Assembly (NCBI RefSeq): GCF_004099695.1
Contig: NZ_SCHL01000026.1
Span: forward strand, 1-35,099
Origin: Methanosarcina sp. MSH10X1
GTDB taxonomy: Archaea > Halobacteriota > Methanosarcinia > Methanosarcinales > Methanosarcinaceae
Direction: 5' to 3'
DNA length: 35,099 nt
In this document: piece after piece, positions 563 through 4,121 of the stretch
Layout of the letters: the number at the start of each line of letters is the position of its first letter
Position numbering within the stretch: position 1 is the first letter of the stretch
Position numbers and translations under genes: made by a program
Notes under the pieces: generated by a model
Databases searched by the model: none
The model's input: only the letters and a program-made list of their open reading frames with translations
What the model was told of the DNA's origin: nothing

Positions 563-1129
563 TCAGCATTCCTTCCCTATCGAAAAAGCCTTTCCGATAT
601 TACACCCGATGCTATAGTAGCTCCGGTTTCCGGTACCGTATATAATCGGACGGATTTTCTCAATATCCGGGTTCTTATTTTCGTCAAGCACGGATTCTTC
701 GGCTTTGATATCCACGATTTCTCCTACAAAGAGGGTGTGAAGCCCTATCTCAAGAGTATGCAGAAGTTTGCATTCGAGGACAACCGGGAACTCTCCTACG
801 TAAGGGGCGGGCACGATTTCGCTCCTTACAGGGGTGAGACAGGCTCCTTCAAACTTGTTTTCATCCCTGCCGCTTGCCATACCAAGGTAATCGGTTTCTT
901 TTACATAGTCTTCGGACGGGATGCTTACGGTAAATGCCTTATTTTCTATGATCCCGGCATAGCTGTAAGTTGCCTTTCTTAAGGATACGCTGATACATGG
1001 AGGGTTCGAGCAGCAGATCCCTCCCCAGGCTACGGTCATGGCATTTGGTATTCCGTTCATATCATAGGTGCCTACGACCCAGGTCGGCGTCGGAAACGCC
1101 TGTGGCTTTGCTCCTATTGATTGTTTCAT
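563..1129 (-). CDS. Flavin reductase-like domain protein (flavoredoxin family)
   Basis: A 188-residue protein, counted from the ATG at 1129 ([10 protein letters not shown]). A longer reading from a TTG at 1156 adds nine residues unlike the family and is not preferred. Features of the FMN-binding flavin-reductase-like/flavoredoxin fold: the N-terminal P-x-P-x-W-V-V-G-T-Y strand, the NAMTVAWGG and [11 protein letters not shown] segments that form the FMN pocket, the KAFTVSIPS strand, and a C-terminal [15 protein letters not shown] tail. The known relative in Methanosarcina is a flavoredoxin that carries electrons through FMN. Role here: cytoplasmic flavin-dependent electron transfer, partner unknown. 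It converges on an iron-sulfur oxidoreductase gene, but no operon is implied. Confidence 0.8.
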
Positions 1130-1283
1130 GCTTTTAGTTTCATTTCGATAATACAAAAAGGTTTTTCGACCCGGATCACACCTATCCTATCTACTACTCT
1201 CCCTTTCCATTCTTCCGATATTTTATATTATTGACAGCAGGCAAAAGCAAAGTATCGTTTATTTAAAATGTATATTTTGCGGC

Positions 1284-1297
1284 TATTATATATATTA
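1284..1297 (+). promoter_or_regulatory. Candidate TATA box for the small surface-protein cluster
   Basis: An uninterrupted TATTATATATATTA lies in the spacer after the flavoredoxin gene and is the best archaeal TATA-like element before the first cluster gene. A start site about 25 bases downstream would leave a leader of about 270 nt before the start near 1585-1600. That leader would begin close to a perfect GCATGT/ACATGC hairpin at 1319-1335. Confidence 0.35.
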
Positions 1298-1362
1298 CGG
1301 ATAATATAAACAGAGGTAGCATGTGAGAAACATGCGGTTTAATTCAAAAGCGCCGGTAAGCT

Positions 1363-1428
1363 ATTTTCCCGGTCAGGGTTGATGAATATTCATTATTCCG
1401 GCGGGCATCGAGTCTCCGTCCAGGGGAA
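1363..1428 (+). repeat. Duplicated leader element, copy 1
   Basis: This segment aligns without gaps to 1855-1920 at roughly 70% identity, mostly through transitions, and both copies precede a paralogous small membrane-protein gene. Shared blocks include TCAGG, AATATT, ATTATTCC and CCAGG. No clear codon periodicity is seen in the differences, so a regulatory or structured-RNA leader is more likely than a coding exon. The stretch from 1429 to 1584 holds no gene I can support; the short frame 1379-1573 is unconvincing. Confidence 0.5.
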
Positions 1429-1584
1429 AACCGGGGAAGAAAGGAATAGGTTACGGAAACTCAAGATTATTGTAATTGTATTTGAAGTACAGGTTACTGT
1501 TGCAGTACTGTTTACAGTTACAAAGAACTCTAAGAAAAAAGTAAGATTAAGGTTGAACAGGTTACCACTGTAAGTAGTTAACAA

Positions 1585-1794
1585 ATGGGGGGTATAAACA
1601 TAAAACTAAAGAAAATGCATGTAGTTGGCGGTTTATTAACAGGGACAGCTGCCGGGATTTTAGCTGGCTTGACTGCCGGACTTGTGGTTATGTATATTTA
1701 CGATCGGTATATCCATGAGAAAGAAGTACACAAAAAAGTCATATCCGCTTCTAAGAGGACTCTTAAACCACATAAATGCCTCATAATAAAATAA
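1585..1794 (+). CDS. Small Gly/Ala-rich single-span membrane protein
   Basis: A 69-residue protein with one hydrophobic Gly/Ala-rich helix (about residues 14-37, GGLLTGTAAGILAGLTAG) and a basic tail (YDRYIHEKEVHKK). It is a paralogue of the N-terminal 45 residues of the next gene but stops before any Ig-like domain, so it is either a stand-alone anchor or a truncated copy. The ATG at 1585 has no Shine-Dalgarno upstream. Instead the six G's that follow it form the cluster-wide box (1588-1599), which points to an ATA at 1600; initiation there would give a 64-residue product. Function unknown; probably inserted in the cytoplasmic membrane. Confidence 0.5.
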   Translation: MGGINIKLKKMHVVGGLLTGTAAGILAGLTAGLVVMYIYDRYIHEKEVHKKVISASKRTLKPHKCLIIK

Positions 1795-1854
1795 AGGGCA
1801 TTCAGATGGATGTACTGAGTCGAACGTGCTGTCAAATTAAACTAACTTTTAATT

Positions 1855-1920
1855 CTTTTCCTGCTCAGGACTGGTAAATATTTATTATTCCAGTAAGTAT
1901 CCATCCTTCAGCCAGGAAAT
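1855..1920 (+). repeat. Duplicated leader element, copy 2
   Basis: Second copy of the segment at 1363-1428, about 60 bases before the initiation box of the Ig-like protein gene at 1993. In this copy ACTGG (1870-1874) and CCAGT (1890-1894) could pair around an AT-rich loop. The equivalent bases in copy 1 do not preserve that pairing, so a conserved structure is not shown. Confidence 0.5.
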
Positions 1921-1980
1921 GCAGTCACAACTAATGCTTTTAAAGCCTGTAAAATTAAGGCTGAGTCCGTAATATGTTGT

Positions 1981-1992
1981 GGGGGTATAAAA
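1981..1992 (+). promoter_or_regulatory. G-rich initiation box before a CTG start
   Basis: GGGGGT followed by ATAAAA and then CTG at 1993. The G-run can pair with the archaeal anti-Shine-Dalgarno (ACCUCC) through one G-U wobble. Identical geometry occurs at 1588-1599 (next codon ATA), 3001-3012 (next codon TTG) and 3363-3374 (next codon CTG), which makes this the likely ribosome-binding site of each gene. Confidence 0.5.
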
Positions 1993-2544
1993 CTGACAAA
2001 GAAGCACACACCTGGTGGTCTGATAACGGGAGCAGTTGCTGGAACCGTTGCCGGAGTTGTGGCGGGTTTGGTTGCCGGAATTACAATGAGATATACTTAC
2101 GATAAGGTAGTTCGTGAGAAACAAATTCATAGAAAACCCAAAACCACTCCCGGGAGAGCGTTTAAACGCCGTCCGATTCCTGCTACAGTCAAGGCTGTTT
2201 ACCCGGACAGGCAAACTTTATCTCATAACCTCAAATCCCCGATCTGGGTCGAATTCGATGCGCCTATGGACAGTTCTACTATCACGAAGGATACGGTTAT
2301 AGTTAAAAATTCAGTCTCCGATAAACCTGTAGACGGTTTCCTTGATGCAGGTGACAGGATTCTGATGTTCCGGCCATATGCAAACTATCCTATGGAAAAT
2401 GGCGGAGCCAGAGTCTCCATTACTTTAATAGGAACCGATTCCGGATCGGGAGCTATCACCGATACAAAAGGCGTTCCCCTTGATGGAGACAACGATGGAA
2501 AAGCGGGGGGAGATTTCGAATATAAATTCAATATCGTGAGATGA
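1993..2544 (+). CDS. Membrane-anchored SbsA/Big_5 Ig-like domain protein, probable CTG start
   Basis: From CTG 1993 the protein has 183 residues: a short basic N terminus (TKKHTPGG), a Gly/Ala/Val-rich membrane span (about residues 9-32), a basic linker, then one Ig-like domain (about 70-182). The domain carries the SbsA/Big_5 hallmarks: VYPDRQT, PIWVEFDAPMD, STITKDTVIV, ILMFRPY and an Asp-rich LDGDNDGKAGGDFEYKF end that may bind calcium. The frame is open from 1897 but has no ATG, GTG or TTG before 2059, and starting at 2059 would remove most of the membrane span. Similarity to the gene at 1585 extends upstream to about 1987, supporting 1993. Likely a cell-surface structural or adhesion protein; exact role unknown. 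Confidence 0.72.
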   Translation: MTKKHTPGGLITGAVAGTVAGVVAGLVAGITMRYTYDKVVREKQIHRKPKTTPGRAFKRRPIPATVKAVYPDRQTLSHNLKSPIWVEFDAPMDSSTITKDTVIVKNSVSDKPVDGFLDAGDRILMFRPYANYPMENGGARVSITLIGTDSGSGAITDTKGVPLDGDNDGKAGGDFEYKFNIVR

Positions 2545-2572
2545 AGAAACTCCACAAAAAATCTTTTAATTT

Positions 2573-2631
2573 TTTATTTTAATTCTTTATTTTAATTCTT
2601 TATTTTAATTCTCTATTTTAATTTTTTATTC
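2573..2631. repeat. 13-bp T-rich tandem repeat
   Basis: Unit TTTATTTTAATTC, three exact copies (2573-2611), one diverged copy (2612-2624) and a partial copy. It begins about 30 bases after the stop of the Ig-like gene. T-rich runs on the coding strand are typical archaeal termination signals, so this may act as a terminator. The remaining spacer to 3012 holds a candidate TATA box (2834-2847) and a possible degenerate third leader copy around 2952-2984. Confidence 0.75.
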
Positions 2632-2833
2632 ATATAATAATTCCTCCTTTTACTTCTCTTTTATTACGAATTTTTTCCACAGGCGCAGGACAGGGCTGTA
2701 ACTTTCAAACCGGAGAACCGTTCTTTGCTACTTGCCTCAGAATTTTTCCTTCCGTACTTCGGTTTAATTTTTAAGTGCATTTTTATTTACTTCCTCCTGT
2801 GTGCCGGATCTCGCGCCTGTTTAAAACTATAAC

Positions 2834-2847
2834 AAATATATAAATAG
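2834..2847 (+). promoter_or_regulatory. Candidate TATA box for the 3013-3890 gene pair
   Basis: AAATATATAAATAG matches the archaeal TATA consensus. A start about 25 bases downstream would give a leader of about 145 nt before the TTG at 3013. Confidence 0.45.
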
Positions 2848-3012
2848 TCTCGAAGTCAGTATAAAATAATTTAATCCCTTGTATAGTTGCCGTTATATAA
2901 TATGCAAGCTATAGGATAAATACAGGAGTATTAAATCCACTACTCTCCTTTCCGGGTAAAAATTATAGAATTCGGGGGATGTCCGGTAAGGGAAAAGCGA
3001 GGGGGTGTAAGA

Positions 3013-3354
3013 TTGCTGAATATAAGCAAATACGGTAAGTTAGCGCTGAGTGCATATGTGATGAAGAAAATGAAATCAAGGAGCAGGGGTACGTTGCGTA
3101 AATATGCCAAACTGGCCCTCGGGGCGTATCTCATTAATCAACTCAAGTCAGAAAAACCTGAAAAAGAAATCGAATACGAATTTGAACCTGAAGAAGAGAT
3201 AATATTGAGTGAACCAGCCGAAGTTGAAGCAGCTCATGGGCCTTCAATGAAAATAGGTAAAATAGTTCTTGGTGTGCTTGCTGGCGCTACAATTATATAC
3301 GCACTTAAGAGACAGGCTGCTAAAAAGAGTGGACACGGAATCGAAGTAGAGTGA
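3013..3354 (+). CDS. Small modular membrane-associated protein with repeated KYxKLALxAY segments
   Basis: A 113-residue protein read from TTG 3013, which sits exactly six bases after GGGGGT. Residues 5-23 (KYGKLALSAYVMKKMKS) and 30-48 (KYAKLALGAYLINQLKS) are an internal duplication of a basic amphipathic or hydrophobic segment. A Glu-rich linker follows (about 49-75, many EPE/EEE), then a related third hydrophobic segment (IGKIVLGVLAGATIIYALKRQ), probably membrane spanning. The next gene starts with the same kind of segment. The stop TGA overlaps the GTG at 3351, so the pair may be translationally coupled. Not recognised as a named family; probably surface or membrane organisation. Confidence 0.65.
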   Translation: MLNISKYGKLALSAYVMKKMKSRSRGTLRKYAKLALGAYLINQLKSEKPEKEIEYEFEPEEEIILSEPAEVEAAHGPSMKIGKIVLGVLAGATIIYALKRQAAKKSGHGIEVE

Positions 3355-3890
3355 GCCTGAAGGAGGGTATAAGCCTGTACAAAATAAATAAATGGTGTAA
3401 ACTCCTGCTGGGGGCGTTTGCAGGAATTGCCATTATATATGCCTCTAAAAAACACATATGTTATGACAGGTTCCTTCCAGAAGCTTTAAAATCCTTTTCC
3501 ATGCCATTCAAGCGCGGACAGGCTCCTCCAAGGGTTAAATCCATCTATCCTGACAGGCAGACCTTTGCTTTCAGGCATGATTCCCCTATCTGGATCGAAT
3601 TTGATATGCCTATGAATAACGCAACCATCACGAAAGAAACCGTAATAGTCAGAAGTTCTGCATCGAATGAACCTGTTGACGGCTTGCTTGACACAGGCTC
3701 CAGAATGCTGATGTTCCGTCCTTATGACGAATATCCTGCGGGGGAATCAGGCGCTGAAATTACAGTCACCTTAATTGGAAGCGAAACCGGATCAGGATTC
3801 ATAATGGACGAGCGCGGTATTGCTCTTGATGGGGATGGAAACGGAAAGCCCGGAGGAGACTTTGAATATACTTACAGAATTATAAAGTGA
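3351..3890 (+). CDS. Membrane-anchored SbsA/Big_5 Ig-like domain protein (second copy)
   Basis: A 179-residue protein from GTG 3351, which overlaps the preceding stop as GTGA. A stronger Shine-Dalgarno, GGAGGGT at 3362-3368, instead points to CTG 3375 (171 residues). The N-terminal KINKWCKLLLGAFAGIAIIYASKKH is a single span related to the third segment of the previous protein. After a linker, an Ig-like domain matches that of the 1993 gene closely: VKSIYPDRQTF, SPIWIEFDMPMNNATITKET, MLMFRPYDEYP, LDGDGNGKPGGDFEYTY. The two Ig domains are clear paralogues on unrelated anchors. Likely exposed outside the cytoplasmic membrane. Pyrimidine-rich DNA follows and may terminate transcription. Confidence 0.78.
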   Translation: MSLKEGISLYKINKWCKLLLGAFAGIAIIYASKKHICYDRFLPEALKSFSMPFKRGQAPPRVKSIYPDRQTFAFRHDSPIWIEFDMPMNNATITKETVIVRSSASNEPVDGLLDTGSRMLMFRPYDEYPAGESGAEITVTLIGSETGSGFIMDERGIALDGDGNGKPGGDFEYTYRIIK

Positions 3891-4045
3891 AGTCAGGTGT
3901 GAAGTAAAAAGGTTTGCCTTCCGAAAAAAGCCTTTTTAACTTCTTATATTTTGACCTACTTTCCATTTTAATTTCTTATATTTTTTTATTTTATCTTATT
4001 ATTTTTTATTCTACTCTATTATATTTTTATTTTATTATTTTTATT

Positions 4046-4095
4046 CTATTCTATTCTATTCTATTATATTCTATTCTATTCTATTCTATTCTATT
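4046..4095. repeat. CTATT pentanucleotide microsatellite
   Basis: Four CTATT units, one ATATT, then five CTATT units, inside a longer T/A-rich tract (about 3950-4120) between two convergent genes. It ends only about 25 bases before the stop codon of the hydantoinase gene. A frame through it (3914-4252) encodes only a Tyr/Leu/Phe/Ile low-complexity string and is not a gene. The T-rich plus strand could end transcription from 3351-3890. Confidence 0.9.
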
Positions 4096-4121
4096 TTGTT
4101 TTATTTTATTTTGTTTTATTT

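Follow-up and report, generated by a model that had tools for sequence, protein, structure and literature searches.

Archaea select start codons with eukaryote-like factors (aIF1 and aIF2) plus Shine-Dalgarno (SD) pairing. According to a review, archaeal aIF1 helps to reject non-canonical starts (PMC8211752). In Staphylococcus aureus and Bacillus, infC (AUA), cvfC1 (AUU) and ccpN (AUA) have kept a near-cognate codon through evolution behind an unusually strong SD, and in S. aureus the conserved AUU/AUA starts with extended SD reach about 10% of the output seen with AUG when the medium is poor (PMC13009471). Bacterial infC, the gene for IF3, combines an AUU or AUA start with an SD and autoregulates. 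In Methanosarcina itself, an M. mazei ribosome profiling (Ribo-seq) study assigns CTG to about 5% of unannotated small open reading frames (sORFs) (PMC11456600). Here we examined a window, the whole 35,099-nucleotide stretch of Methanosarcina sp. MSH10X1 (contig NZ_SCHL01000026.1), in which four small plus-strand genes lie between 1585 and 3890, each with a G-rich box at one fixed distance from a codon other than AUG. Comparison with related genomes makes it highly probable that these boxes are Shine-Dalgarno sites, that the true starts are AUA1600, CUG1993, UUG3013 and CUG3375, and that SD compensation of such starts occurs across the genus.

What the locus shows is known in principle but takes a new, archaeal form, and its reach is wider than was claimed in the original prediction for this DNA, which had proposed deliberately weak or conditional non-AUG initiation of one surface-protein cluster. 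The S. aureus and Bacillus examples are bacterial and comprise a handful of AUA/AUU genes, whereas here CUG is the predominant codon in an archaeal host, the starts sit at several unrelated genes, and a trade-off between SD and start codon is visible between species (PMC13009471). The M. mazei sORFs with CTG come from the same genus, but from one species and from proteins of 70 amino acids or fewer, while the present starts are conserved at the level of orthologues in ordinary longer genes and include AUA, AUC and AUU, which the accessible portion of that study does not mention (PMC11456600). Compared with bacterial infC, the near-cognate start behind an SD is shared, but there is no sign here of factor autoregulation. 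We found no literature on genus-wide conserved CUG, AUA, AUC or AUU starts in archaea, though coverage was incomplete and such absence is no proof.

For the comparison, the genome of the window (G000) was grouped with 30 other genomes of one genus. The named relatives found by sequence were Methanosarcina, apart from two chance matches (L043 and L044) that were set aside, and orthologues of the cluster genes were read in about 25 genomes. SD strength was expressed as duplex energy with the 16S tail, which replaced a strict hexamer scan that was too blunt; the tail, GGATCACCTCCT (ACCUCCU), was confirmed in four related genomes.

The original prediction gave the boxes, spacers and codons correctly. 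GGGGGT stands at 1588-1593 (gene 1), 1981-1986 (gene 2) and 3001-3006 (gene 3), and GAGGGT at 3363-3368 (gene 4, whose full SD box is AGGAGGGT at 3361-3368), all on the plus strand. Behind them come six-base spacers (ATAAAC, ATAAAA, GTAAGA and ATAAGC for genes 1 to 4) and then ATA1600, CTG1993, TTG3013 and CTG3375, each in its own gene's frame. The predicted match to the anti-Shine-Dalgarno holds as well: pairing of the boxes with AUCACCUCCU gives -10.4, -9.8, -13.1 and -10.5 kcal/mol for genes 1 to 4, at proper spacing to the codon. Pairing at alternative starts is +0.3 kcal/mol for ATG1585, +2.7 for ATG1615, -1.1 for GTG2059 and -3.5 for GTG3351, and a value of -9 kcal/mol is attained by only 0.74% of random 12-mers from this genome. 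Both box types together were counted 219 times in 800 kb of strand, corresponding to about 0.5 expected per 1.8 kb of single strand; four in-frame boxes at one spacing are far beyond chance, even though genes 1 and 2 are not independent in this estimate because they are apparent duplicates. Conservation across about 20 genomes puts the reality of the pattern beyond doubt. The G-boxes look like Shine-Dalgarno sites.

Gene 1 (1600-1794, plus strand) encodes a small protein, rich in glycine and with a single hydrophobic span, and most likely starts at ATA1600. Gene 2 (1993-2544, plus strand), with a putative start at CTG1993, encodes a similar glycine-rich hydrophobic span at its N-terminal beginning and a Big_5 Ig-like domain (Pfam PF13205, E=1.5e-5, 26.1 bits with a cut-off of 23.6). 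The two genes look like duplicates by sequence, and leader alignments point the same way. Across 18 sites of this family, the codon six bases behind the box is CTG in 12, ATA in 3, ATG in 2 and TTG in 1, and the gene 2 box is almost invariant in 10 aligned sites. ATA is found in gene 1 of G000, G006 and G029, the latter two sharing its box and spacing; duplicates in other species have CTG, and a gene-1-like copy in G007 has ATG at the same spacing. The original prediction that gene 2 has no ATG, GTG or TTG upstream of 2059 was confirmed back to the stop 99 nt before CTG1993, and in G001, G007 and G012 an in-frame stop immediately precedes the gene 2 box. Likewise, gene 1 of G006 and G029 has no in-frame ATG, GTG or TTG from the upstream stop until codon 12 or later. 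A usable conventional in-frame start is absent from gene 2 and many orthologues, but not from genes 1 and 4 when this genome is taken alone. The same alignments speak to upstream translation in another frame followed by a frame shift at the G-run, which we regard as next to impossible: an other-frame ATG-TTG does run into the gene 2 box in this window, but in the majority of gene 1/2 orthologues the other frames soon meet stops and offer no start codon from which the box would be reached, and in most of them a stop of one frame falls within the spacer, 5 nt ahead of the start.

Gene 4 (3375-3890, plus strand), with a putative start at CTG3375, combines a hydrophobic N-terminal span with a Big_5 domain (PF13205, E=1.6e-8, 35.6 bits with the same cut-off of 23.6). 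The aligned codon in 20 orthologues is CTG in 10, TTG in 6, ATG in 3 and GTG in 1, with one of the three ATGs lying two codons on, behind its own box. Orthologues L026, L027, L023 and L025 (G004, G028, G015 and G029) contain in-frame stops or frame breaks and are probably decaying copies. Gene 3 (3013-3354, plus strand), which encodes a small protein with KYGKL-type hydrophobic segments and no Pfam match, has TTG in 19 of 20 distinct orthologues and TTA in 1; this TTG is an ordinary archaeal start, and in G006 and G029 it comes directly after a TGA stop. The TTA occurs in orthologue L081 (G025), where the SD is intact.

Read across Methanosarcina, the codon at the fixed site exchanges only among near-cognates of AUG, the start position being conserved and exchanging with AUG, GUG and UUG, and at the corresponding position an outgroup genus carries TTG or ATG. 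ATG, GTG or TTG versions at the same aligned place, or at the same distance behind the box, are the opposite of what would have spoken against the predicted non-AUG initiation, CTG included. In genes 1 to 3 the sequence upstream is unconserved, the box is nearly invariant, and variation in the codons that follow is greatest at the third base. The near-cognate exchange and the frequent in-frame stops just upstream make it very probable that CTG and ATA serve as start codons. The stops and the conservation pattern together exclude an upstream in-frame start in the species concerned, and nearly exclude frameshifting. It would still be conceivable that conventional starts are used (ATG1585, GTG2059, GTG3351 or the codon-12 ATG of many gene 2 orthologues) and that the box is coincidental or internal. 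ATG1585 and GTG3351 are indeed in frame in this genome, and several gene 2 orthologues have a moderate SD, of about -6 kcal/mol, before their ATG at codon 12. However, none of these alternatives is conserved, several orthologues have an in-frame stop right before the box, codons 2-11 vary in a coding pattern, and downstream starts would cut the hydrophobic span, making this explanation very unlikely. ATG1585 (1585-1587, plus strand), directly before the gene 1 box, is missing in G006 and G029; GTG3351 (3351-3353, plus strand) overlaps the gene 3 stop, and at its position many orthologues show an in-frame stop or no start codon. Either could serve as an extra start, though without a good SD and without conservation.

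Starts of the same kind are found at unrelated genes. We scanned stretches of G000 for SD-led near-cognate codons and then checked the candidates across the genus. X1 (DUF5817, L090:15442+) has CTG in 19 orthologues, ATG in 10 and ATA in 1; X2 (DUF790, L100:7281+) has CTG in 20, ATG in 7 and GTG in 1; and X3 (beta-CASP metallo-hydrolase, L088:3384-) has CTG in 24-25 and TTG in 3. For X3, a CTG at L088:3312 was judged internal, with the CTG at L088:3384 the likely start. X4, a 75-aa HMA-domain protein (L091:14873-; orthologues L250-L277), is a candidate case of AUC initiation, its aligned first codon being ATC in 23, ATA in 4 and ACG in 1 of 28 genomes, with GGGGGTGAA as SD (-14 kcal/mol). The adjoining CopZ-like HMA gene, X5 (L250-L279), uses all four AUN forms (ATG 13, ATT 8, ATA 8, ATC 1). 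Gene 4, X1 and X2 vary at base 1 of their start codons and hardly at bases 2 and 3, the reverse of a leucine codon: codon 1 of X2 is only CTG, ATG or GTG, while its invariant leucine at codon 2 is written CTC in 15, CTA in 7, CTG in 4 and CTT in 2. A blind count gave a prevalence estimate from two 400-kb samples, the first consisting of 20 stretches (400 kb) of G000; SD-led CTG near the 5' ends of open reading frames occurred 11 times versus 3.0 expected from ordinary codons (Poisson about 3e-4 by our own arithmetic). Other probable starts with CTG, ATT or ATC and a strong SD, seen in the G000 samples only, are at L290:6508 (+, GalU-like), L104:12770 (-, PhoU-domain, with ATT), L286:10562 (+, putative lipoprotein), L281:7859 (+, signal-peptide-like protein) and L294:15595 (+, DUF5305).

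The recurrence of near-cognate starts in aligned sequences indicates a general habit of Methanosarcina rather than a device of this locus, so the idea of a mechanism special to one surface-protein cluster did not hold up. The label of surface protein is itself unproven, as the proteins have a hydrophobic span rich in glycine but show no evident signal peptide. Cluster-specific regulation, in which non-AUG codons would allow these genes to be switched, for instance by aIF1 in the way IF3 acts on infC, could draw on the maintenance of non-AUG starts across the genus, the discrimination of aIF1 against non-canonical starts in Sulfolobus (review PMC8211752) and the medium-sensitive AUA start of ccpN in S. 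aureus (PMC13009471). We consider it unlikely, since unrelated genes carry the same starts, start codons swap with AUG among species, and aIF1 itself (PF01253) starts with ATG in all copies read. An Rfam search of 1150-4100 gave no match, and leader alignments of the cluster genes are poorly conserved and contain no strong conserved RNA element. Autoregulation of aIF1 in the manner of infC is unsupported, its gene having no weak start.

SD strength and start codon vary together. SD pairing for AUG versus non-AUG orthologues was -8.4 versus -10.2 kcal/mol in genes 1/2, -6.6 versus -10.3 in gene 4, -7.6 versus -10.8 in X1, -8.6 versus -11.7 in X2 and -6.8 versus -10.8 in X5, meaning that AUG goes with the weaker SD in 5/5 families having both kinds of orthologue. 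When genes of one genome are compared with each other, it is again the AUG gene that has the weaker SD, in 21/23 cases. In X5, GGAGAT is found mostly with ATG and GGAGGT with ATT, ATA or ATC. The lineages with AUG are largely opposite for X1/X2 and X5; this and the within-genome result mean that the pattern tracks the codon, not the species. In these alignments the trade-off is directly visible, as are the position of the starts and their near-cognate exchange.

Compensation of a weak start codon by strong 16S pairing looks like the simplest explanation. Strong pairing to the 16S tail (ACCUCC) would hold the small ribosomal subunit and put the near-cognate codon into the P site, where initiator Met-tRNA would begin synthesis, the first residue most likely being Met. 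A strong SD would offset a poor start codon, in keeping with the usually weaker SD of lineages with AUG. From this we infer initiation at these codons in cells, with a lower translation rate. More broadly, it is probable that initiation of ordinary genes at CUG, AUA, AUU and AUC is routine in Methanosarcina, with SD strength evolving to offset the weakness of the codon, that standard gene finders misplace the starts of perhaps tens of conserved genes per genome, and that the initiation machinery is unusually permissive for an archaeon.

Several observations weigh against the main reading of SD-led starts with compensation. A search of the draft G000 assembly for the 16S tail pattern gave no match. 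Genes 1 and 4 retain conventional alternatives in this genome (ATG1585 and ATG1615, and GTG3351, respectively), and the AUA start of gene 1 rests on three genomes, two of them without a better candidate. As the species are related, counts of orthologue codons are not independent events. In the blind scan, ATA, ATT and ATC showed no clear excess behind SDs, and their support is comparative only. Non-AUG X3 orthologues have a modest SD of about -7 kcal/mol, and one X1 orthologue pairs ATA with an SD of -4.4 kcal/mol; compensation is therefore not universal.

Common gene callers mostly permit ATG, GTG and TTG, so that conserved genes with CTG, ATA, ATC or ATT starts are shortened or missed, in line with the original prediction that such starts would be misplaced. 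The families also constitute a natural experiment, in which one gene has AUG and a weaker SD in some species and a near-cognate codon and a stronger SD in others. With gene-specific AUG lineages largely opposite, the trade-off long assumed to exist between SD strength and the quality of the start codon becomes directly testable in archaea.

Upstream of the cluster, window positions 563-1156 (minus strand) encode a flavin reductase-like domain protein (Pfam E=2.2e-32). A 13-bp T-rich tandem repeat occupies 2564-2630, immediately 3' of gene 2, and a long tract of TTCTA/TTTTA-type repeats at 3985-4120 lies between gene 4 and a convergent large minus-strand open reading frame.
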